From Sulfurimonas aquatica (GTDB lineage Bacteria > Campylobacterota > Campylobacteria > Campylobacterales > Sulfurimonadaceae), in assembly GCF_017357825.1 (NCBI RefSeq), contig NZ_CP046072.1, positions 1,612,001 through 1,676,000 of the forward strand: DNA of 64,000 nucleotides, in the 5' to 3' direction. Both the position numbers and the translations under genes were made by a program. Position 1 is the stretch's first letter, and each line of letters starts with the position of its first letter. Positions 34,734-46,557 of this stretch are shown here, piece after piece. The notes under the pieces were generated by a model, which worked only from the letters and a program-made list of their open reading frames with translations, made no database searches and had not been told where the DNA came from.

Positions 34734-36467
34734 ATGAATCAATCAATACAAGAGTGTATTTTGTACTCTAAAGACCTCAGGTTACTCTATGTTGAGGATA
34801 ACAAAGATGCAAGGACCTTTACTCTTGAGTTACTCAATCGTTTTTTTACTGATATAGCTATTGCCATAGATGGAGAAGATGGGCTAAAGCAGTTTAAAGC
34901 TTCAGAATTTGATCTTGTAATTACTGATTTAAACATGCCAAATATGGATGGCATTGAGATGTCAAAAGAGATGAAACGCATAAACGAATCAATATCAATC
35001 ATCATCTTATCTGCACATAATGAAACAGACTTCTTTATTTCAAGTATACAGTTAGGGGTCGATGGGTTTTTACTCAAACCATTAGAGTTGTCTCAATTTG
35101 CACAAACTATGAGCAAGGTTGTAGAAAAGATTCACTTAAAAAAAGAGGTAAAGCTCTATCAGACTGAGCTAGAAGACTCAAATAAAAACCTTGAACAAAA
35201 AGTGCAAGAGAGAACTAATGAGTTAGAGTATAAAGTTTATCATGATGATTTAACAGGCTTGAAAAATCATACTGCTATGATGAAAAAAATAAATAACTTT
35301 ACCTTTGAAACACTTGTTTTAGTAGACATAGCTGGTTTTCAAAAGTTTAATGACCTCTATGGGCTCAGTGCTGGTAATACTATTTTAATAAAATTTGCAG
35401 ACTCTCTCAATGAGTTCAATGCTCAAAAAACATATACTCTATTTCGCGTATATAGTGATGTTTTTGCAATCTTATATGCATCTCAAGAGATAGAAAACGA
35501 TCATAGCGACATAGATATACAGAGACTCATCGACTCTTTTAAAAAGTTTAAAGTTTACATAGAGGAGATTGAGGCTGAAGTTGATATTGAGACCACTATT
35601 GGAATCGCTATAAATCAAGATAACCTTTTTGTAAAAGCTGACATGGCCCTAAAACATGCGAAAAAACTCAAAAAGCAAGCAATCATATACTCAGAAGAGA
35701 TTGACACATCTAAGCAACTACTAAAAGATATGCACTGGAAAAATGAGATTCAAAACGCAATATCAACTGATAATATCATTCCAGTATTTCAAGGCATTGT
35801 CGACATAGATGGTAATGTAATAAAATATGAAACATTAATGAGACTCACACAGTTTAGTAATAATGAAGAGAAGCTAATCTCTCCATATTTCTTTTTAGAA
35901 GCCTCTGTAAAAACTAGACAGTATGACAAACTAACGCGGATAATCGTTGAAAAAAGCTTTGAGTTTATGAGTGGAAAAGGTATTGATTTTTCCATTAACC
36001 TCTCATTTGAAGACCTATCAGATCCGCTTCGTGTTCAATTTTTACATGACCAAATAGCAAAATACGAGATTGGAAACAATCTAATAATGGAAGTTCTAGA
36101 GAGTGAGGTAGTTAGTGATTATAAGATGGTAGCAGATATATTAAACAGTTTTAGAGAGAGTGGCGTTAGAATTGCCATTGATGACTTTGGTTCAGGTTAC
36201 TCAAATTTTGAGCATATACTCAGACTAAATCCAGACTATCTAAAAATAGACGCATCCCTCATCAAAGAGGTGGTAACTGATGAAAAATCTTTTACTCTTG
36301 TAAAAGCAATCGCAGAGTTTTCAAAAGAACTTGGCATAAAAGTTATAGCGGAGTATGTAAGTTCTAAAGAGATATTTGACATACTCAAAGAGTTGTCGAT
36401 AGACGAATACCAAGGTTTTTACTTCTCAATGCCTTCAAAAGGATTGGAACTCATAAGAGATGTATAA
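34734..36467 (+). CDS. REC-GGDEF(degenerate)-EAL cyclic-di-GMP phosphodiesterase
   Basis: 577 residues. Receiver about 10-130 (VEDNKDARTF, VITDLNMPNMDG, LLKPLEL). The GGDEF-like part (about 165-320) keeps VDIAGFQKFND but has YSDVF where GGDEF should be, so it is unlikely to make cyclic-di-GMP. The EAL domain (about 330-577) keeps the catalytic set: YETLMRL for ExLxR, an asparagine in NLSFEDL, DDFGSGY, LKIDASLI, IAEYVSS and YQGFYFS. The likely job is phosphorylation-controlled breakdown of cyclic-di-GMP. It starts 10 bases after the kinase gene and overlaps the next gene by eight bases. Confidence 0.88.
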   Translation: MNQSIQECILYSKDLRLLYVEDNKDARTFTLELLNRFFTDIAIAIDGEDGLKQFKASEFDLVITDLNMPNMDGIEMSKEMKRINESISIIILSAHNETDFFISSIQLGVDGFLLKPLELSQFAQTMSKVVEKIHLKKEVKLYQTELEDSNKNLEQKVQERTNELEYKVYHDDLTGLKNHTAMMKKINNFTFETLVLVDIAGFQKFNDLYGLSAGNTILIKFADSLNEFNAQKTYTLFRVYSDVFAILYASQEIENDHSDIDIQRLIDSFKKFKVYIEEIEAEVDIETTIGIAINQDNLFVKADMALKHAKKLKKQAIIYSEEIDTSKQLLKDMHWKNEIQNAISTDNIIPVFQGIVDIDGNVIKYETLMRLTQFSNNEEKLISPYFFLEASVKTRQYDKLTRIIVEKSFEFMSGKGIDFSINLSFEDLSDPLRVQFLHDQIAKYEIGNNLIMEVLESEVVSDYKMVADILNSFRESGVRIAIDDFGSGYSNFEHILRLNPDYLKIDASLIKEVVTDEKSFTLVKAIAEFSKELGIKVIAEYVSSKEIFDILKELSIDEYQGFYFSMPSKGLELIRDV

Positions 36468-37671
36468 CATAGACGACATCAAGCATTTTAAAAAAATGTG
36501 TAGCGATATATCCATACTAATGCTAGATGATGAAGTCATTATAACTGATGCTTACAGCGATGTTGCAAGTCGTTTTTTCAACTCCATAGATATTTCTAAC
36601 AATCCTGCAGAAGTATTGAAAGCTTATACATCTACTAAATATGACATTATATATACAGATATCAATATGCCAGGGATAAATGGCGTTGAACTCATAAAAG
36701 AGATAAAAAAGATAAACCCAAAACAGAAATTTATAGTTATCTCTGCAAGTGATGAGTCGGATAAACTTCTTGATCTCTTAGCTCTAAATGTATCAGGCTT
36801 TATTGTCAAACCATTTAATCTACAAAAGTTTATAGACATAAGTATGGACCAGGTCTCCATTATATTACAAAGTCGTATAATGAAAAAAGAACTACTCACA
36901 GTTACTAAAGAGAAAGAAGAGCAGCAAAAAATGCTTATCCAGCAATCTAAACTAGCCCAAACAGGTGAGATGATTTCTATGATTTCTCATCAATGGCGTC
37001 AACCACTTTCATCGATAACTACGGTTATTGCAGGACTAAAAACCAGACTTCAGTTAGGTCTATATGAGCAAAAAGAGAATCCTCTAGAAGCGATGACAAA
37101 CGACTTCACAAAAGCTTTTGACAAAATAGAAACTTCGGCCAAATTTTTGTCTAAAACGATTAATGATTTTAGAAACTTTTATCGTCCCAATAAAGAGAAA
37201 AGTTTTTTTAATGTTTGTAGTGCGATAGAAAATGTATTTGAGATGATTCAAGTTACTAGCCATGACATCACAACTAATATAGAGTGTATAGATATTGATG
37301 GAGCGAGCATTACTAGCTATGAAGGAGAATTGAAGCAAGTCTTTATGAGTATCATTAATAATGCTATTGATGCATTAAAAGAAAAAAGTATTAAAAATAA
37401 AAAAATATCCATCTTTATAGTAGTTAAAGAGAATAATATTGATGTTTCTATTATTGATAATGCTGGTGGAATTCCCAATGAAATTATGGAAAATATATTT
37501 TTACCATACTTCTCAACAAAAAATGAAAAAAATGGAACGGGACTTGGCCTACACATGGCTAAGACCATAATTGAACAACACCTACAGGGCTCTTTAAGTG
37601 CAAGGAATTCTCAAGAGTTTCAAGGTGCCGAATTTTTAATAACTATACCAAAGAACTTAACTCAAGGATAG
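36460..37671 (+). CDS. REC-histidine kinase
   Basis: 403 residues: receiver (about 15-135; MLDDEVI, IIYTDINMPGING, IVKPFNL), a coiled coil, then a kinase core with QQSKLAQTGEMISMISHQWRQP (H177), a bent N-box IINNAIDAL and G-boxes IDNAGGI and GTGLGLHMA. It is soluble, with no other sensor, so input comes through its receiver. The kinase core is somewhat apart from the MIAHQWRQP set of its neighbours (MISHQWRQP, TRLQLGLYEQ insert). It overlaps the EAL gene and is three bases from the next receiver gene. Confidence 0.9.
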   Translation: MYNIDDIKHFKKMCSDISILMLDDEVIITDAYSDVASRFFNSIDISNNPAEVLKAYTSTKYDIIYTDINMPGINGVELIKEIKKINPKQKFIVISASDESDKLLDLLALNVSGFIVKPFNLQKFIDISMDQVSIILQSRIMKKELLTVTKEKEEQQKMLIQQSKLAQTGEMISMISHQWRQPLSSITTVIAGLKTRLQLGLYEQKENPLEAMTNDFTKAFDKIETSAKFLSKTINDFRNFYRPNKEKSFFNVCSAIENVFEMIQVTSHDITTNIECIDIDGASITSYEGELKQVFMSIINNAIDALKEKSIKNKKISIFIVVKENNIDVSIIDNAGGIPNEIMENIFLPYFSTKNEKNGTGLGLHMAKTIIEQHLQGSLSARNSQEFQGAEFLITIPKNLTQG

Positions 37672-37674
37672 ACT

Positions 37675-38742
37675 ATGCCAAATATCAAAGATTTACTAAA
37701 ATATACATCTCACTTATCAATACTCTATGTTGAAGATGACGACACTCTACGAGAAGAGACTGTTTTTTTGTTTGAGCCATTTTTCAAATCCATTGATACT
37801 GCAGTTGATGGAGTTGATGGGTTAAAAAAGTACAATGACAACTATTACGACCTTGTGCTCACTGACATTAATATGCCAAACATGAATGGTATAGATATGA
37901 TAAATAACATCAAAGAGATAAACCCTGAACAAAAAATCATGGCTATCTCCGCACACAACGAATCTGAGATACTTATTGAGCTTATTAAGGCTGGAACAAA
38001 TAGTTTTATCTTAAAACCAATCATTCAAAATGAGGTTATCAATGCTCTTTACCCAGTATGTAGAGATGCTTATACTCAGGTTTTAAACTTGGAGCTTATA
38101 GATGAGATTACAGATAAAAATAGTGAACTTGAAAAGCAGATCAAATTACTAAACTCTAGAAATAGTATCATTGATGTCAAACATAAACAGGTTGAAAGTC
38201 TTCTAAAAACAAGTACTCAACCAAAAGATATAGAAGTTAAACAAGAGAGTGCTTCACTCTCAGCATATTTTGCACAAGACGAATGTGAAGGTGAAGAGAA
38301 CGTACTCTTTTTACAAGATCATGTTCATGATATTCTAGAGTACTTTGAAGAGATAGAACAGATACTATCTACCATTGTGATGTTTTCCGACGAAACCGAT
38401 GTTTTAAAAATCAGTGAAAAACTATTTAAAATTTCTACTATTCTCTTACATTACTCTCCATACCTAAACTCACTCTCTACCGCTTTTAGTGAGTTGGCCA
38501 CTGCTATGCAAGAGCATAAAGATGACTTTTTAAATCTTTTAAGAACTGATGGCGATAGTCTTTTAGTCTTATTTGATGCAGTATATTTAGATATGGATAG
38601 ATATACAAAACGCTTTAGTGTAGAGAGCCTAGCTATGAGAAACTCACACCATATACATGAACCTACAGTCTTAAGTATAAAGCAGATAGTTTCACTCTTT
38701 GTCATAGATCATTTTGAAGATGGTGAAATAGAGTTTTTCTAG
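37675..38742 (+). CDS. Response regulator with unassigned helical C-terminal domain
   Basis: 355 residues. Receiver about 12-130 (VEDDDTLREE, VLTDINMPNMNG, ILKPIIQ), a coiled linker, then about 170 residues predicted mainly helical (HVHDILEYFEEIEQIL, LFKISTILLHYSPYLNSL, FDAVYLDMDRYTKRF). No HxxKG of an Hpt domain, no HD, EAL, GGDEF or DNA-binding pattern was found. The C-terminal part may be an unnamed output or protein-binding domain. It is tightly linked with the REC-kinase before it. Confidence 0.8.
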   Translation: MPNIKDLLKYTSHLSILYVEDDDTLREETVFLFEPFFKSIDTAVDGVDGLKKYNDNYYDLVLTDINMPNMNGIDMINNIKEINPEQKIMAISAHNESEILIELIKAGTNSFILKPIIQNEVINALYPVCRDAYTQVLNLELIDEITDKNSELEKQIKLLNSRNSIIDVKHKQVESLLKTSTQPKDIEVKQESASLSAYFAQDECEGEENVLFLQDHVHDILEYFEEIEQILSTIVMFSDETDVLKISEKLFKISTILLHYSPYLNSLSTAFSELATAMQEHKDDFLNLLRTDGDSLLVLFDAVYLDMDRYTKRFSVESLAMRNSHHIHEPTVLSIKQIVSLFVIDHFEDGEIEFF

Positions 38743-38765
38743 TTTATTTTAAAATAGGACCATAA

Positions 38766-40541
38766 ATGTTTTCATTAAATAAAATTCGCCTTTTAATAGC
38801 TCTATTTTTTGCTACTGCATATTTTCTTATCTACTTTGCTACTAGTTACAAAGAAAAAGAAGAGATTAACCTTATACTTGAGCAGCAGGTAAAAGACCTT
38901 AAAAACAGTTACTACATGACCCAACGTGTTTTTGGGGACTTAAGTGACTGTTTATATAGCATAGTATTAAACGAAGAAGAGATTACTGAACTTTTATATA
39001 AGGCAAAACACTCCAAGACAGAAGATGAACGTGCTAAAGTACGTAAAGCCTTATACAATAAAATGCAACCCTACTTCAAACATTTTTCTAATTCTGGTTT
39101 AAAAATCATGGTCTTCTCTTTTGAAGACAATATAGCATTTTTGAGGGTACATAAACCAGAAAAATATGATGATAGTCTTTCGCCTGTGCGTTATAGCTTT
39201 GAATATGCCAACAAAAACAAAAAACAAGTTCGTGGGTTTGAGCAGGGAAAAATTTCTCATGCTTTTAGAAATCTGTTTCCAATCTACCGTGGCGATGAGT
39301 ACTTAGGGAGTGTAGATTTTGGTTTTTCATCTGAAATAATGCAAGAGAATATGACATCAGTTCATAAAATAGACACTCACTTCATTTTAAATAAGGCACT
39401 TTTCGAAGCCAATGTCTGGAAAGACAAAAACCAAGTCAACTATATCCAAAGCATTGAACATAAAGATTTTCTTTTTGCTCTAACACCATCTCAAAAAAAC
39501 AGTAAATTTAAAAAAGAGAAGATAGAACTTAACAAATACCTAAAAGATCAAATAGCTAAAAATATAGACCATCAAGGTCCATTTTCACTCTATCACGATT
39601 TTAATGATAAGGTTATGATTATCTCCTTTATACCGATTAAAAATATAAAAGAGAAAAAAACAGTGGCCTATATGGTCTCATACACTACTGATGCATATCT
39701 AAAAAACCTAATTGATGGAAACTATTATATAAAAATTATATTTTTTGTTGCTCTTTTTATAGTCTCATATTTAATTTTACATATATCTTTAGAACGTTTC
39801 AACTTGCAAGTACGTGTCAATAAAGAGGTTGAGAAAAATAAAAAACAGCAAGACAAACTACTTATAAAGTCTCGTATGGCCCAACTTGGAGAGATGATAA
39901 GTATGATAGCACATCAATGGAGGCAACCCTTATCATCTATTTCTGCAATCTCATCTACACTAAGTCTCGATTCTATGATGGATAACTATAAAAAAGATTT
40001 TTTTATTAAAAGATTAGATGATATTAGTGAGCTTGCTCAACATCTCTCTTCTACAATAGATGACTTTAGAAACTTTTATGAACCAGATAAAAAATCTGTT
40101 GATGTCTCTTTAAATAGTGTGATTGAAAAGGCTCTAAACATTATAAAAGATTCATTAGCTGCTGATAAAATAGAAATAATAAGAGTGACTGATGGTGATA
40201 TAACAATAAGAGTTTATGAAAATGAACTTATACAAGTAGTCTTAAATATTTTAAAAAATGCACAGGACAACTTTAGAGAAAAAGGTACTACTAATCCTAA
40301 AATAACAATAACTATAAAAGGTAATACTATAGATATTTGCGATAACGGTGGAGGCATCCCTGAAGATATTATCCCAAATATATTTGATCCCTACTTTTCA
40401 ACAAAATCTGAACTCAATGGTACCGGTTTAGGTCTTTATATGTCAAAAATAATTGTTGAGGAACATCATGAAGGTAATCTCTTTGTAAAAAATCAAGATA
40501 CTGGTGTATGCTTTATAATTAAACTAAATCTAGTAAATTAA
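38766..40541 (+). CDS. Membrane histidine kinase with periplasmic dCache-like sensor
   Basis: 591 residues: membrane segment about 8-25, a periplasmic region of about 300 residues with the dCache_3-like pattern FLRVHKPEKYDDSLSPVR, VRGFEQGKISHAFRNLFPIYRGDEYLGSVDFGF, second membrane segment about 322-342, a short coiled coil and the kinase core SRMAQLGEMISMIAHQWRQP (H383), ILNILKNAQDNF, CDNGGGI, GTGLGLYMS. The family often senses small carboxylates or amino acids, but the ligand is unknown. Last kinase of the first block of the island. Confidence 0.88.
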   Translation: MFSLNKIRLLIALFFATAYFLIYFATSYKEKEEINLILEQQVKDLKNSYYMTQRVFGDLSDCLYSIVLNEEEITELLYKAKHSKTEDERAKVRKALYNKMQPYFKHFSNSGLKIMVFSFEDNIAFLRVHKPEKYDDSLSPVRYSFEYANKNKKQVRGFEQGKISHAFRNLFPIYRGDEYLGSVDFGFSSEIMQENMTSVHKIDTHFILNKALFEANVWKDKNQVNYIQSIEHKDFLFALTPSQKNSKFKKEKIELNKYLKDQIAKNIDHQGPFSLYHDFNDKVMIISFIPIKNIKEKKTVAYMVSYTTDAYLKNLIDGNYYIKIIFFVALFIVSYLILHISLERFNLQVRVNKEVEKNKKQQDKLLIKSRMAQLGEMISMIAHQWRQPLSSISAISSTLSLDSMMDNYKKDFFIKRLDDISELAQHLSSTIDDFRNFYEPDKKSVDVSLNSVIEKALNIIKDSLAADKIEIIRVTDGDITIRVYENELIQVVLNILKNAQDNFREKGTTNPKITITIKGNTIDICDNGGGIPEDIIPNIFDPYFSTKSELNGTGLGLYMSKIIVEEHHEGNLFVKNQDTGVCFIIKLNLVN

Positions 40542-40628: not shown

Positions 40629-42605
40629 ATGATAAATAGACTCTCCTTATCAATAATAACTACTATGCTACTTTCAATAGGAGCTGGTGCTACCGACATA
40701 GATGAGTTGTTAGACTTAGATCTTGAAGAGTTGTCAAATATAGAAATAACTACAGTATTTGGTCCATCTAAGACCACGCAAAAGATAACTGATGCTCCAG
40801 CAAATATAACTGTAATTACAAGCCAAGAGATTAAAACTCGCAATTATCGCTCATTAGCTGAAGCACTCTCTACTCAGAGTGGTTTTTATACCTCCTATGA
40901 TAGGGACTATACATACCTTGGCGTTAGAGGATTTAGCTCGCCAGGAGACTACAATAGTAAGATACTTACGCTCATTGATGGTCAACGTGTAAATGAAAAT
41001 ATCTATTCATCTTCAATGGTTGGTCCTGTAACGCATATTGATATGGACTTGATTGACTATATAGAAGTTATTCGTGGACCTGGTTCAGCCATTTATGGTT
41101 CTAGTGCTCTTTTTGCAGTTATAAATATAGTAACTAAAAGTGCTCAAAAGTTTCAAAATGGTGAAGCTTCTCTCATGGTTGGTAACTATGGTACTGATCA
41201 AGAGAGAGTGACTCTCTCGCATCTATTTGATAGTGGCAATGGCCTTTTACTCTCTGCTACTCGTTTTCATTCAGATGGTGATAACGACCTTTACTTCAAA
41301 GAGTTTGATGACCCTACTACAAACGGTGGACATGCAAAAAATATTGATAGTACTGATGGATATACACTCTTTTTAAAGTCAAATATTAGTGATTTTAAAA
41401 TTGAAGCTCTTATGTACTCCCGTGAAAAAACTGTTCCAACTGCAGCATGGGAATCAATCTTCAATGAAGCCATAATAAGTAAAGATAGACATGGCTATGT
41501 AAACTTAGCATATAAGCACTCTTTCTCAGATGAATTGAAAATTAGCACATCCTTAGCTTATAACTATTATGACTTTATAGGAGATTACATCTATGAAGAT
41601 GGTGGTCTAACACTTTCAAGAGATGAAGCGCGAGCACAATGGATAGATGGTAATGTTGATGTAAACTATAAACAGAGTGATAGTTTAGATTGGCTACTCG
41701 GTCTCTATCTTATGGAATCTTTAGAAGAAAAACAAGTCTATCTCTATGATAATGTAACAGATATAGATACAGATAACCCTATTAATTATTATGCATTTTA
41801 TCTACAAAACATTTATAAACCAACCGAAGATCTATCTTTTACTCTTGGTCTTAGATATGACAACTATGAAACAATAGGTTCTCAGATCTCTCCAAAAGCA
41901 TCTCTTATATACTCATTTTCACCAGTTTCTTCACTCAAACTAATTTATGGAGAAGCCTTTAGAGCACCAAACTCTTATGAGCTCTACTACAACGATGGTG
42001 ATTTTACAAGTAAGGCAAACCCAAATTTAAAAGAAGAAAATATAAAAAATTATGAAATAGTTCTTGAGCACTACTTCTCCACAAATCACTCATTTATAGT
42101 AAATGGTTTTTATTATGAAATGCAAAATTTAATCCAACAAACTACTGACGCTTCTGGTATTTTATTTTTTGATAACCTTGATAAGACAGAGTCTAAGGGT
42201 TTAGAGTTAAGTCATAAGTTTATGTTTACAAATGGCATAAAGAGTTCACTTAACTATACATACCAAGAGACTACAAATAAAGAAACAGGTGTTGTCCTAG
42301 TAAACTCTCCAAAAGATCTTGCAAATGCAGTTGTAACGATTCCGTTTCTAAGTAACTACTCTACATTTTTTGCACTCCAATATGTCGGTGAAAAGAAAAA
42401 TCCAAATGGTGATATACTTGATGATTACACTCTTATGAACTTGGGTTTAAATGCATATGATGTAGTAAAAGGACTAGACTTCTCAGGAACTCTCTATAAC
42501 CTTTTTGATACAAGCTACTCAAGTAGTGGTGGAGAAGAACATGCCCAAAAAGAGATTATTCAAGATGGCATCACTTTTCGAGTAAAAGCAACATATAAAT
42601 TTTAG
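40629..42605 (+). CDS. TonB-dependent outer-membrane receptor
   Basis: 658 residues: signal peptide about 1-21, an acidic N-terminal stretch (DIDELLDLDLEELSNIEI), plug domain (about 55-170; TDAPANITVITSQEI, LGVRGFSSPGD, YIEVIRGPGSAIYGSSALFAVINIVTK) and a 22-strand-type barrel ending in an aromatic residue (KATYKF). Located directly before a YfiR-family gene and a CHASE8 kinase. In such clusters the receptor can act as a signal receiver or importer of a signal rather than a siderophore. The substrate is not evident. Confidence 0.88.
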   Translation: MINRLSLSIITTMLLSIGAGATDIDELLDLDLEELSNIEITTVFGPSKTTQKITDAPANITVITSQEIKTRNYRSLAEALSTQSGFYTSYDRDYTYLGVRGFSSPGDYNSKILTLIDGQRVNENIYSSSMVGPVTHIDMDLIDYIEVIRGPGSAIYGSSALFAVINIVTKSAQKFQNGEASLMVGNYGTDQERVTLSHLFDSGNGLLLSATRFHSDGDNDLYFKEFDDPTTNGGHAKNIDSTDGYTLFLKSNISDFKIEALMYSREKTVPTAAWESIFNEAIISKDRHGYVNLAYKHSFSDELKISTSLAYNYYDFIGDYIYEDGGLTLSRDEARAQWIDGNVDVNYKQSDSLDWLLGLYLMESLEEKQVYLYDNVTDIDTDNPINYYAFYLQNIYKPTEDLSFTLGLRYDNYETIGSQISPKASLIYSFSPVSSLKLIYGEAFRAPNSYELYYNDGDFTSKANPNLKEENIKNYEIVLEHYFSTNHSFIVNGFYYEMQNLIQQTTDASGILFFDNLDKTESKGLELSHKFMFTNGIKSSLNYTYQETTNKETGVVLVNSPKDLANAVVTIPFLSNYSTFFALQYVGEKKNPNGDILDDYTLMNLGLNAYDVVKGLDFSGTLYNLFDTSYSSSGGEEHAQKEIIQDGITFRVKATYKF

Positions 42606-42619
42606 GTATAAACAACAAA

Positions 42620-43153
42620 ATGATAACAAAAATATTTTTACTTTTTATCACTAGCAGCTTATTTTTAACACCATTAAGTATGGCTGATGGAGCAAATGTA
42701 AAAGATATTAAAGTTGCCTATATTTATAATTTTATTAGATATATTAACTGGCCAGATTCACATTATCATGATGATTTATTTCATATATGTGTACATGAAA
42801 AATCAGACTTAATAACAAACCTTGAAGTCCTTGAAAAAAAGTCTGTAAAAAGTAAACCAATTAAACTGATCTTAATTTCAAATAAAACAGAGAAACTCGC
42901 TAGATGTGAAGTCCTAGTTTTACCAAAACTCAATCAGCAAGAGTTAAAAATGTACACAGACTATGCAGCCCCATCAAATATACTTACCATTTCAGATACA
43001 CAAGGGTATGCAAAATTAAATGTTATGATAAACTTAATTGTTTTAAATAATAAAATTAAATTTGAGGTTAACCTTCATGAGGTTGATACAACACAACTTA
43101 CTATTAGCTCAAGTCTTTTAAAACTTGCTAAAATAGTTAAAAACGAAGAGTAA
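42620..43153 (+). CDS. YfiR-family (DUF4154) periplasmic protein
   Basis: 177 residues, signal peptide about 1-22, then the YfiR pattern VKVAYIYNFIRYINWP (seen as IKVAYIYNFIRYINWP), FHICVHE, LPKLNQQEL, ILTISDTQGYAK, INLIVLNNKIKFEVNL. In Pseudomonas YfiR is a periplasmic inhibitor of the CHASE8 cyclase YfiN, released by redox or envelope signals. Here two cysteines are left (FHIC and ARCEV). The next gene has a CHASE8-like sensor, so this protein probably controls that kinase. That inference rests on family and adjacency. Confidence 0.88.
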   Translation: MITKIFLLFITSSLFLTPLSMADGANVKDIKVAYIYNFIRYINWPDSHYHDDLFHICVHEKSDLITNLEVLEKKSVKSKPIKLILISNKTEKLARCEVLVLPKLNQQELKMYTDYAAPSNILTISDTQGYAKLNVMINLIVLNNKIKFEVNLHEVDTTQLTISSSLLKLAKIVKNEE

Positions 43154-43162
43154 AGTAATGAT

Positions 43163-44716
43163 ATGTTAGATAATCTATTTCACTATTACAGTAACCTCTC
43201 TATAGCAAAAAAGTTAAGATTTACTGGAATTATCACAGCTTTTTTTGCTGGTTCTTTTTCTATTGTTCTAATCTTTTTTTATCAGTATAGCAATCAAAAA
43301 GAGTTCTTAAAAATAGAGACTGAGGTCCTAGGTAAAATTGTAGCTCAAAATATTTCATCGGCAGTTCTATTTAATGACCAGGAGTTCATGTCAACTTCCT
43401 TAAAATCTTTGATATATCAAAAGAGAGTGAAACATGCTTATGTCACTGATAGTAAATTTAATACTATGACTTCTTACCACCATTCTAAAGAAGCCGTAAA
43501 AGAAGAACTGCTTCAACGTCTTAGTAAATCTAACAACTCTTTATGGGACTCTCAAAATCTATATATAAAAATACCTATCAGTGTTGATGAAAATATAATT
43601 GGCTTTTTGATTCTTGTCTCTTCTTTAAATGAGTTTATAGAGTCTATGATTCAAGAGATGCTTGTAATTATTTTCATTGTAATTCTTGCTATGATAGTAT
43701 CTTTTAAGTTAAGAGTGAGACTGATTGACTCAATACTAATACCTATAGCAAGGTTAAATGAAAGTACCCATAAAATAATTCAAACAAAAAACTTAACAAC
43801 TAATGTTGAAATCTATAATAACGATGAGATTGGAGAGCTAGCAACTAACTTTAACCATATGATTAACACTATACAAATCTCCAACGAAAAGCTAATTGCT
43901 AATAATGAAGAGTTAGAATCTAGAGTTAATGAGAGGACATCTGAACTACAAGAGTTAAACCTAGAACTAGACCAAAGAGTAAAAAATGAACTACATAAAC
44001 GCCTAGAACAAGAGCAGATACTCATTCAGCAGTCTCGCTTTGCTGCAATGGGTGAGATGATTGGAAATATTGCTCATCAATGGAGACAGCCTCTGAATGC
44101 TCTAGGACTACTTCTACAAAACTTAGAAAACGCATATGAGATGGAGATGCTTGATAAAGAGTATATAGACCGTACTATTGAAAAGGGAAATCGCCTTACA
44201 GGGACTATGTCTCAAACTATTGACGACTTTAGAAACTTTTTTAAACCAAACAAGGACTCTGTGACATTTACTATCTCTTCAAGTTTAAAAAGTACTTTAG
44301 AGATGCTTCGTTCAAGTTTTGACAATAGTATAATTAGTGTTCATCAAGATATTGATGAGTCTGTAAATATCATGGGTGTTCCAAGTGAGTTTTCACAAGT
44401 TATTCTAAATATTTTAAATAATGCCAAAGATGCTTTAGTCGAAAATAGGCTTGATGATAGGCAACTATATATAAGAGTATTTGATGATGAAAATAGTGCC
44501 TATCTAGAGATTGAGGATAATGCTGGTGGCATACCATCAGAGTTACTTGAGAAAATATTTGACCCTTACTTTACAACAAAAGATGAAGGTAAGGGAACGG
44601 GAATCGGCTTATATATGTCTAAGACAATTATAGAAAACAATATGCATGGTACACTAAAAGTTAAGAATAATAAAAATGGTGCTATTTTTAGCATACAGAT
44701 AAAAAAGAGTATTTAA
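43163..44716 (+). CDS. CHASE8-HAMP histidine kinase
   Basis: 517 residues: membrane segment about 17-40, CHASE8-like periplasmic domain (LGKIVAQNISSAVLFNDQEF, then LIYQKRVKHAYV), second segment about 165-185, HAMP (about 190-245), long coiled coil, and a kinase core QQSRFAAMGEMIGNIAHQWRQP (H305), ILNILNNAKDAL, EDNAGGI, GTGIGLYMS. YfiN has the same CHASE8-HAMP front with a GGDEF output; here the output is a kinase. The ribosome site is weak. The last base of the stop is shared with the next ATG, tying it to the REC-HD-GYP protein. Confidence 0.88.
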   Translation: MLDNLFHYYSNLSIAKKLRFTGIITAFFAGSFSIVLIFFYQYSNQKEFLKIETEVLGKIVAQNISSAVLFNDQEFMSTSLKSLIYQKRVKHAYVTDSKFNTMTSYHHSKEAVKEELLQRLSKSNNSLWDSQNLYIKIPISVDENIIGFLILVSSLNEFIESMIQEMLVIIFIVILAMIVSFKLRVRLIDSILIPIARLNESTHKIIQTKNLTTNVEIYNNDEIGELATNFNHMINTIQISNEKLIANNEELESRVNERTSELQELNLELDQRVKNELHKRLEQEQILIQQSRFAAMGEMIGNIAHQWRQPLNALGLLLQNLENAYEMEMLDKEYIDRTIEKGNRLTGTMSQTIDDFRNFFKPNKDSVTFTISSSLKSTLEMLRSSFDNSIISVHQDIDESVNIMGVPSEFSQVILNILNNAKDALVENRLDDRQLYIRVFDDENSAYLEIEDNAGGIPSELLEKIFDPYFTTKDEGKGTGIGLYMSKTIIENNMHGTLKVKNNKNGAIFSIQIKKSI

Positions 44717-46557
44717 TGAGTATAGATAATTTAAAAGATTTCACTATTTTATATGTTGAGGATAATAGAGACATATCTGAAGAAGTAGCATATATGCTAC
44801 AAAGGTATGTTAAAAAACTCTATGTAGCATACGATGGTAAAGAGGGGTTAGAAGCCTTTTTAAAAAATAAACCAGATATTATCATAACAGATATACAAAT
44901 GCCAATAATGAATGGCTTAGATATGATAGAGATCATTAGAAAAACTAACACTGAAGTCCCCATTATAGTCACAACCGCATTTAATGAATCTGATTATCTT
45001 TTAAAAGCTATTGAACTACATGTTGATGCTTACCAGGTTAAGCCTATTAAAATGAAAATGTTAATAAAAAGTTTAAATAAAGTAATTGAGCCTATAGTTC
45101 TTCGTGAGCAGGTCAAGCAAAAAAATGAGCAAATATCTGAAAATAACCACTATTTAGAACAGTTTAAAAATATAGTTTATGAGGCATCGATTTTCTCCTC
45201 TTCAGATAAAAATGGAATAATTACAGACATTAACAAGAATTATGAACTCATTTCAGGTTATACACGCGAAGAGATGATAGGTAATCCTCATACTATACAT
45301 ATGGACGATAGTGTAGAAGCAGAAATATATCAAGATTTACGTGACACTATACAAAGTGGTAAGATTTGGAGTGGAATGATAAAAAACAAGAGTAAATCTG
45401 GTAAACCTTACTATGTAATTACTGAGATTGGTCCTATCTATAACAGAGATGGCTCTTTTAAAGAGTACATAGGTATCAGAAATGACGTAAGTGAACTAGA
45501 AGAGTATAAACTTCTTCTAAAAAATGAACTTGCTAAAACAAGTAACAATCTTGAAGAGACCATAAACTATACAAATCAATATGAAAACGCCATTAATACA
45601 AAAACAGCTATTCTCAAAACAGATACTATGAATATTATCACATATGCAAATGATAGTTTTTGTGAACTAAGTGGCTATAAAAGAGAAGAGATATTGGGAC
45701 ATAACTGTCTAGAGATGCGTCATAAAAAGCATCAAGAAACTCTAAATTGCGAGCTAAGAAGAGAGCAACTCTCTAAAAAGAAACTAGTAGAAGAAATTTT
45801 AACCAATATCAAGAAAAATGGGGATGAATATATTGTCGACAACCTCTTTTATCCTATTGTTAACTTAGAGGGAGAAGTTGTAGAGCACCTACAAATCATG
45901 TATGATATAACAGAGTTAATGCAACTCAATCAAGAGATAATTGACACACAAAAAGAGGTAGTACTCACAATGGGTGCTATTGGCGAAACAAGAAGTAAAG
46001 AGACAGGTCTACATGTTAAGAGAGTAGCAGAGTACTCCTACTTACTTGCAAGACTTAGTGGACTGAGTGAAAAAGAGGCATCCTTACTAAAACAAGCTTC
46101 TCCAATGCATGATATAGGAAAAGTTGGAATTCCCGATAATATTTTAAATAAGCCCGGCAAACTCACTGATGAAGAGTTTGAAATTATGAAGACACATGCT
46201 GAGATAGGTTATGAAATGCTAAAGTACTCTAAGAGAGCTATTTTAAAAGCTTCAGCAACTGTAGCCTATACACATCATGAAAAGTATAATGGAACAGGCT
46301 ATCCAAATAAAACCATAGGCAAAGATATCCATATATATGGTCGTATTACAGCTATAGCAGATGTATTTGATGCTTTAGGACATGATAGAGTTTATAAAAA
46401 AGCATGGCCACTTGAGGATATCTTAGAGTTGTTTACCAAAGAGAGAGGCAAGCATTTTGACCCTGATTTAATAGATCTATTTTTTGAAAATTTAGAGAAG
46501 TTTCTTTCCATCAAAGAGAGGATGAATGAAAATATATCACTTGCCACTATTGATTAG
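44716..46557 (+). CDS. REC-PAS-PAS-HD-GYP cyclic-di-GMP phosphodiesterase
   Basis: 613 residues. Receiver about 8-125 (VEDNRDISEE, IITDIQMPIMNG, QVKPIKM), PAS 1 about 150-270 with KIWSGMIKNKSKSG, PAS 2 about 290-410 with GYKREEILGHNC, and an HD-GYP domain about 420-600 with HDIGKVGIPDNIL, HAEIGYEML, HHEKYNGTGYP and IADVFDALGHDR. HD-GYP enzymes hydrolyse cyclic-di-GMP to GMP; metal-binding and GYP residues are all present, so activity is expected. It directly follows the CHASE8 kinase and is its probable phosphorylation target. Confidence 0.92.
   Translation: MSIDNLKDFTILYVEDNRDISEEVAYMLQRYVKKLYVAYDGKEGLEAFLKNKPDIIITDIQMPIMNGLDMIEIIRKTNTEVPIIVTTAFNESDYLLKAIELHVDAYQVKPIKMKMLIKSLNKVIEPIVLREQVKQKNEQISENNHYLEQFKNIVYEASIFSSSDKNGIITDINKNYELISGYTREEMIGNPHTIHMDDSVEAEIYQDLRDTIQSGKIWSGMIKNKSKSGKPYYVITEIGPIYNRDGSFKEYIGIRNDVSELEEYKLLLKNELAKTSNNLEETINYTNQYENAINTKTAILKTDTMNIITYANDSFCELSGYKREEILGHNCLEMRHKKHQETLNCELRREQLSKKKLVEEILTNIKKNGDEYIVDNLFYPIVNLEGEVVEHLQIMYDITELMQLNQEIIDTQKEVVLTMGAIGETRSKETGLHVKRVAEYSYLLARLSGLSEKEASLLKQASPMHDIGKVGIPDNILNKPGKLTDEEFEIMKTHAEIGYEMLKYSKRAILKASATVAYTHHEKYNGTGYPNKTIGKDIHIYGRITAIADVFDALGHDRVYKKAWPLEDILELFTKERGKHFDPDLIDLFFENLEKFLSIKERMNENISLATID

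Follow-up and report, generated by a model that had tools for sequence, protein, structure and literature searches.

A TonB receptor, a YfiR protein, a CHASE8 histidine kinase and an HD-GYP regulator encoded side by side in Sulfurimonas aquatica: a putative signalling unit with a widespread receptor-YfiR input

A stretch of 64,000 nucleotides of the Sulfurimonas aquatica genome (contig NZ_CP046072.1, positions 1,612,001 to 1,676,000; the window) carries four consecutive genes, for a TonB-dependent outer-membrane receptor, a YfiR-family periplasmic protein, a CHASE8 sensor histidine kinase and an HD-GYP response regulator, which we think reasonably likely to form one signalling unit. Judging from the sequence neighbourhoods of YfiR genes in five groups of genomes, the receptor-YfiR front half of this set recurs widely, as a plug-in part for many different predicted outputs. 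The four genes of the window are as follows.

40629-42605, + strand: TonB-dependent outer-membrane receptor gene (658 amino acids [aa], ATG start; Pfam Plug and TonB barrel)
42620-43153, + strand: YfiR-family periplasmic protein gene (177 aa, ATG start; Pfam DUF4154, PF13689)
43163-44716, + strand: CHASE8-HAMP-HisKA-HATPase sensor kinase gene (517 aa, ATG start; Pfam)
44716-46557, + strand: REC-PAS-PAS-HD-GYP response regulator gene (613 aa, ATG start; Pfam)

As an earlier, sequence-only reading of the window had stated, the genes follow one another with short gaps or a one-base overlap, and both the open reading frame positions and Pfam agree: the spacings are 14 bp and 9 bp, followed by a 1-base TAATG overlap of the kinase and HD-GYP genes. 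Motif inspection found all catalytic residues of the kinase and the HD-GYP protein. No gene for a YfiB-type OmpA lipoprotein lies among the four genes, the genome as a whole not having been searched for YfiB, and a promoter scan at the locus gave matches no more numerous than in shuffled sequence.

YfiR genes were sampled regardless of their neighbours (sample sizes are modest and kinship was not corrected for), and a TonB receptor gene was found within 3.5 kb of YfiR in at least 80 of the 110 loci. By group, the counts were 43/56 in the genus of the window (one of them, locus D below, found via its receptor), 7/9 in other genomes of the same phylum, 11/13 in Desulfuromonadia, where a twelfth (L094) was missed by the profile, 8/15 in Acidobacteriota, and 11/17 in a sample of the Gamma class, many of whose 17 loci come from one genome (G376). 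The CHASE8 partner carries a kinase or a GGDEF output in a ratio of 10:2 in Desulfuromonadia, 13:0 in Acidobacteriota and 9:1 in the Gamma sample, the CHASE8 kinase being the commonest YfiR partner in these three groups; the window's own genus has 7 kinases, 4 GGDEF proteins and 10 SpoIIE-type phosphatases (confirmed by Pfam for one member). All seven YfiR-linked CHASE8 kinases of the genus have a c-di-GMP (cyclic di-GMP) response regulator nearby, six of them probably of one orthologous type. At L118, the TonB and YfiR genes are followed by a single 1636-aa CHASE8-HAMP-HisKA-HATPase-REC-REC-Hpt-REC-PAS-GGDEF-EAL protein.

Two further arrangements were observed during this survey. In the same genus, the YfiR-TonB pairs of L039, L041, L045, L047, L048, L049 and L088 adjoin a CHASE8 protein with a SpoIIE/PP2C phosphatase end, and HD-GYP or REC genes often come next. 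YfiR is itself fused to GGDEF in L010 (2248-3792) and to a hybrid kinase in L011 (6357-8909).

The replacement of the cyclase by phosphotransfer, which headed the sequence-only reading, is not new: kinases in place of the YfiN GGDEF domain were already reported in a 2012 paper, in which distant YfiN homologs carry histidine kinase, Hpt, GGDEF-EAL or methyl-accepting chemotaxis protein outputs (Malone et al., 2012, PMC3375315), and kinase outputs are the majority beside YfiR in three of our sampled groups. The replacement is known in kind. Its authors also compared, by alignment, remote YfiN/YfiR pairs of Acidobacteria, Geobacter and others, and put forward a modular core made of YfiR and YfiN (PMC3375315). 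TonB receptors have no occurrence in the main text of the paper; an HD-GYP partner and a mosaic kinase do not appear in its accessible part, nor is a SpoIIE output listed there. In the open-access literature, no text was found that ties YfiR to TonB receptors, to HD-GYP regulators or to SpoIIE phosphatases.

The YfiR protein of the window matches Pfam DUF4154 at 1.4e-35 (123 bits against a curated cut-off of 24.9), and a profile search matches it to YfiR of Pseudomonas aeruginosa (3e-9). Its AlphaFold2 model (pLDDT 88, from 47 related sequences) finds P. aeruginosa YfiR (4zhu/4yn7) as the best match in the PDB, with a TM-score of 0.79 normalised by the YfiR chain. The N-terminus has a signal-peptide-like stretch, and 'KFEVNL' at 147 corresponds to the YfiN-binding Phe region. 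C57 and C96 match the first of the two P. aeruginosa disulfides, C71-C110 and C145-C152; the second pair, which is not strictly conserved in the family, is absent. By analogy with the Pseudomonas protein, YfiR is a putative regulator of the CHASE8 domain, and the wiring from YfiR to CHASE8 is probable.

YfiR might instead be a ligand-binding periplasmic adaptor in the manner of LuxP or TorT, activating or biasing the kinase instead of repressing it in the YfiN style, with a receptor that imports or releases the ligand. The model of YfiR also resembles ABC_sub_bind proteins (3lft, 3lkv), PF04392 binding proteins fill the YfiR slot in five loci, and PF12974 binding proteins feed the same kinase/HD-GYP pair in L178 and a related pair in L185; but the closest fold is still that of YfiR, the YfiN-binding features are retained in both YfiR and CHASE8, and to our knowledge a ligand is known for no YfiR, so that we regard this explanation as unlikely. 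Of 21 loci chosen by the receptor alone, 12 have an adjacent YfiR and 5 have a PF04392-type binding protein in its slot. These PF04392-type (ABC_sub_bind) proteins lie between the TonB receptor and the kinase in L020, L021, L031, L035 and L037. Those of L020 and L037 were assigned from Pfam matches, those of L021, L031 and L035 from their position and length; the next gene after the kinase encodes a REC-HD-GYP protein in L031 and L037.

The Pfam domain order of the kinase agrees with the earlier description, in which a histidine kinase carries a CHASE8-HAMP front, and the profile check of the periplasmic domain returned CHASE8 (1.5e-12, residues 50-151; 48 bits against a cut-off of 27), followed by HAMP (2e-8), HisKA (1e-6) and HATPase (4e-18). 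The CHASE8 domain is bounded by hydrophobic helices at residues 20-38 and 167-185, and the kinase motifs comprise the phosphoacceptor H305 in HQWRQP together with NILNNA, DNAGGIP and GTGIGL. The YfiN-type hydrophobic motif is retained as SSAVLF (compare AAVVF in PMC3375315), a motif that does not distinguish YfiR-linked from orphan CHASE8 domains.

Residues 1-244 of the kinase share 40% identity with a CHASE8-HAMP-GGDEF protein from the same genus, and residues 250-517 are 65% identical to the kinase of L178, a locus of a sister species, whose periplasmic part has ~20% identity to that of the window kinase. By these comparisons the kinase is a mosaic with a putative junction near residue 245; its core was set against the sampled loci, and a still closer one may exist elsewhere. 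Maximum likelihood, applied to 73 CHASE8-HAMP fronts, gave a tree with a bootstrap not fully settled, in which the window front falls together with six CHASE8-GGDEF proteins from its own genus (support 100/98); by this placement it is phylogenetically a CHASE8-HAMP front of the cyclase type. Kinase, cyclase and phosphatase outputs are interleaved elsewhere in the tree, which points to repeated output exchange among CHASE8 proteins. The idea that CHASE8 is exclusive to YfiR neighbourhoods was rejected, as ~9/32 of the CHASE8 genes over the cut-off in the genus have no YfiR nearby. CHASE8-HAMP-GGDEF cyclases without a nearby YfiR hold a conserved place in the genus (L138, L140, L141, L144, L145); they would be either YfiR-independent or served by an unrecognised partner.

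The response regulator consists of a receiver (Response_reg 2e-22, with D59 in TDIQMP), two PAS domains and HD_5 (9e-30), with the HD-GYP motifs intact (H..R, HDIGK at 465, KTH, HHEKYNGTGYP at 520, DVFDAL). Aligned against the c-di-GMP phosphodiesterase PmGH (4mcw), its HD-GYP domain scores 1e-58, with the catalytic motifs matched; a match to a phosphodiesterase of cyclic GMP-AMP (cGAMP) is weaker (4e-35), a difference that is not decisive for c-di-GMP versus 3'3'-cGAMP. The regulator is predicted to be a c-di-GMP phosphodiesterase.

Searching the genus for relatives of the PAS-PAS-HD-GYP part led to L178, where a REC-PAS-PAS-HD-GYP protein with 65% identity over 611 aa to the window regulator is encoded by a gene overlapping that of the kinase with the 65%-identical core. 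There, an OEP (TolC-like) protein and a pair of PF12974 binding proteins stand in for the TonB/YfiR input, and the kinase/HD-GYP pair is conserved while its input has been swapped. The check for the same set in other phyla, which the sequence-only reading had proposed, found an equivalent with one additional kinase in Desulfuromonadia (L094), in the order TonB receptor, YfiR, CHASE8 histidine kinase, substrate-binding-protein histidine kinase (SBP-HK) and REC-HD-GYP. Because the pair is kept in L178 with another input and, as an independent line, the same set is present in L094 and L118 unites CHASE8 kinase, phosphorelay and GGDEF-EAL in one polypeptide, the predicted wiring from the kinase to the HD-GYP protein is well supported. 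We also asked whether HD-GYP relatives of the window type cluster with YfiR, which was rejected: among the closest matches listed, those of G274 and G168 adjoin YfiR and the rest mostly do not. Because its close relatives mostly do not adjoin YfiR, the HD-GYP regulator is, judging from these neighbourhoods, a common component of the genus recruited to the window locus. The set of two PF12974 binding proteins, OEP, histidine kinase and REC-PAS-PAS-HD-GYP was seen in L178 (5610-12506) and L185 (1-7746), the regulator standing after the kinase in L178 and at the opposite end of the set in L185; it looks like an envelope-crossing input, so far undescribed, that serves the same kinase/regulator pair.

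A further cluster, which the earlier reading had missed, stops 87 bp before the receptor gene.

34734-40541, + strand: adjoining cluster REC-GGDEF-EAL / REC-histidine kinase / REC / dCache_3-like histidine kinase (open reading frames and Pfam)

Because this cluster ends so close to the receptor gene, the transcription unit may be longer than four genes, with the cluster co-transcribed; its membership of the pathway is putative. The GGDEF motif of its first gene looks degenerate (VYSDVF). Three further receivers and two additional kinases with HQWRQP lie less than 10 kb upstream, and the window kinase could mainly serve another receiver, such as one of this cluster, and the HD-GYP protein could be driven by the upstream dCache-like kinase. 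We consider this very unlikely, given the one-base overlap of the kinase and HD-GYP genes and the adjacency of the orthologous pair in L178 behind different upstream genes.

The receptor has a plug at residues 53-163 (Pfam Plug 2.1e-21) and a barrel at 278-625 (1.6e-42), its nearest solved chain being the colicin I receptor (2e-29). No STN domain of the FecA type was matched by Pfam in it, and no FecI/FecR partner genes are adjacent. An additional N-terminal periplasmic segment, 'DIDELLDLDLEELSNIEITTV', precedes the plug. In a by-eye, post hoc comparison, YfiR-linked receptors had a longer N-terminal periplasmic segment than ordinary ones; it is present in 4/4 YfiR-linked receptors of the genome, and the five other receptors have short tails in four cases (TonB-box-like in most) and an unrelated long domain in one. 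This segment is a lead, not a test. Judging from the conserved adjacency, the wiring from receptor to YfiR, with the receptor as input, is plausible.

The receptor may alternatively be a regulated uptake gene, that is, cargo or a target of the pathway, with YfiR alone sensing a periplasmic condition such as the redox state. It is an ordinary Plug-barrel receptor without a signalling STN domain, and P. aeruginosa YfiR reportedly reacts to reducing conditions with no need of YfiB (PMC3375315). Against this, the receptor remains beside YfiR whatever the output, the N-terminal segment is common to YfiR-linked receptors and absent from the unlinked receptors of the genome, and just one of the two YfiR disulfides is retained; we judge the uptake-gene explanation to be improbable. 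We prefer the receptor as input, and make a wider proposal tentatively and with some doubt: TonB receptors with the short extra N-terminal segment (LSLEEL... or DFESLLNEVSxIATK...) and YfiR-fold proteins may constitute a general class of inputs across the envelope that is neither of the FecA type nor of the YfiB type. Its outputs would be interchangeable, namely cyclases, phosphodiesterases, histidine kinases or PP2C (SpoIIE) phosphatases, and the segment would be the YfiR contact.

Each of the three Pfam-level YfiR genes of the genome adjoins one of only 9 TonB plug genes, an adjacency with a chance of ~3% per random place and ~2e-5 for all three by our own estimate. Besides the window set, TonB receptor and YfiR genes lie together at three other loci of the genome, whose outputs are EAL (locus B), GGDEF (locus C) and GGDEF-EAL (locus D).

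Locus B, L004 6089-11896 (G000:C1:2083000-2099000): REC-GGDEF-EAL / YfiR / CHASE8 histidine kinase / TonB receptor
Locus C, L005 5583-11046 (G000:C1:1150000-1166000): TonB receptor divergent from a divergent YfiR / histidine kinase without a CHASE8 match / REC-GGDEF
Locus D, L134 5915-10666 (G000:C1:1976700-1989100): TonB receptor / YfiR-like protein / membrane PAS-GGDEF-EAL

The GGDEF site of locus B (LESDIF) is degenerate by eye and its EAL residues are seemingly complete. The YfiR-like protein of locus D has no Pfam match but fits the YfiR profile built here and aligns to it with 97% hhalign probability, its fold being closest to YfiR, though weakly (4e-5). Similar inputs are thus predicted to be coupled to opposite outputs within one genome.

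In the mechanism that we propose, the kinase would very probably autophosphorylate at H305 and hand the phosphate to D59 of the HD-GYP protein, turning on the hydrolysis of c-di-GMP. YfiR would probably bind CHASE8 as it binds YfiN and set the state of the kinase, and the receptor, in the position of YfiB in Pseudomonas, would plausibly report its occupancy to YfiR, perhaps via the N-terminal segment. Should YfiR hold the kinase back in the way it does YfiN, a signal might free the kinase and lower c-di-GMP. We tentatively infer an opposite sign from that of YfiN from the hydrolysis predicted for HD-GYP at the window and for EAL at locus B.

Several observations weigh against this reading. As for the sign, locus C of the same genome ends in a REC-GGDEF with an intact GGEEF, and YfiR could activate instead of restrain. 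The nearest relatives of the CHASE8 front are cyclases without an adjoining YfiR gene, and Pfam-level YfiR is absent altogether from genomes G009, G037 and G199; because of both, the CHASE8 lineage of the window kinase may work without YfiR. At L099, which has the closest full-length relative of the kinase among YfiR-linked loci, TonB and YfiR are present with no adjacent response regulator. Finally, a search through 135 genomes of the genus (55 YfiR places) turned up no second copy of the four-gene arrangement with HD-GYP. Its uniqueness within the genus would also suit a chance neighbourhood with no common function, but TonB-YfiR recurs in other phyla and, within this genome, at three Pfam-level loci and a fourth recognised by profile, and the same set is present in L094, so that chance is scarcely credible.

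YfiBNR is the textbook case of periplasmic c-di-GMP control, and the nature of its activating signals was counted among the central unanswered questions (PMC3375315). In several phyla the usual partner of YfiR is a specific outer-membrane receptor, and this gives a way in: once the ligand of the receptor is found, the signal is known. The mosaic kinase would represent a rewiring in one gene, in which a cyclase-type sensor front was grafted onto a kinase already paired with HD-GYP, turning a probable signal for synthesis into one for degradation.

Compared with known systems, the window locus shares with YfiBNR (TpbB) of P. aeruginosa a YfiR-fold protein beside a CHASE8-type sensor with HAMP, the hydrophobic patch, an outer-membrane partner and c-di-GMP control. 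YfiBNR has the YfiB lipoprotein and a GGDEF cyclase on the CHASE8 protein and serves synthesis, whereas the window locus has a TonB receptor, a HisKA-HATPase kinase with an HD-GYP regulator, and predicted degradation of c-di-GMP. The divergent YfiN-YfiR systems of PMC3375315, seen there in distant homologs, likewise combine YfiR with a YfiN-type front and a kinase output. The L178 relative has the same overlapping order of kinase and HD-GYP genes, but its sensor domain has no CHASE8 match. In RpfC/RpfG, a kinase and a REC-HD-GYP regulator lower c-di-GMP, as is predicted for the window pair, which differs by two extra PAS domains, a non-hybrid kinase and a YfiR/TonB input instead of a kinase sensing the diffusible signal factor (DSF). 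FecA-FecR-FecI also uses a TonB receptor for signalling across the envelope, whereas the window locus, with neither an STN domain nor an anti-sigma/sigma pair, has YfiR and a two-component output instead.

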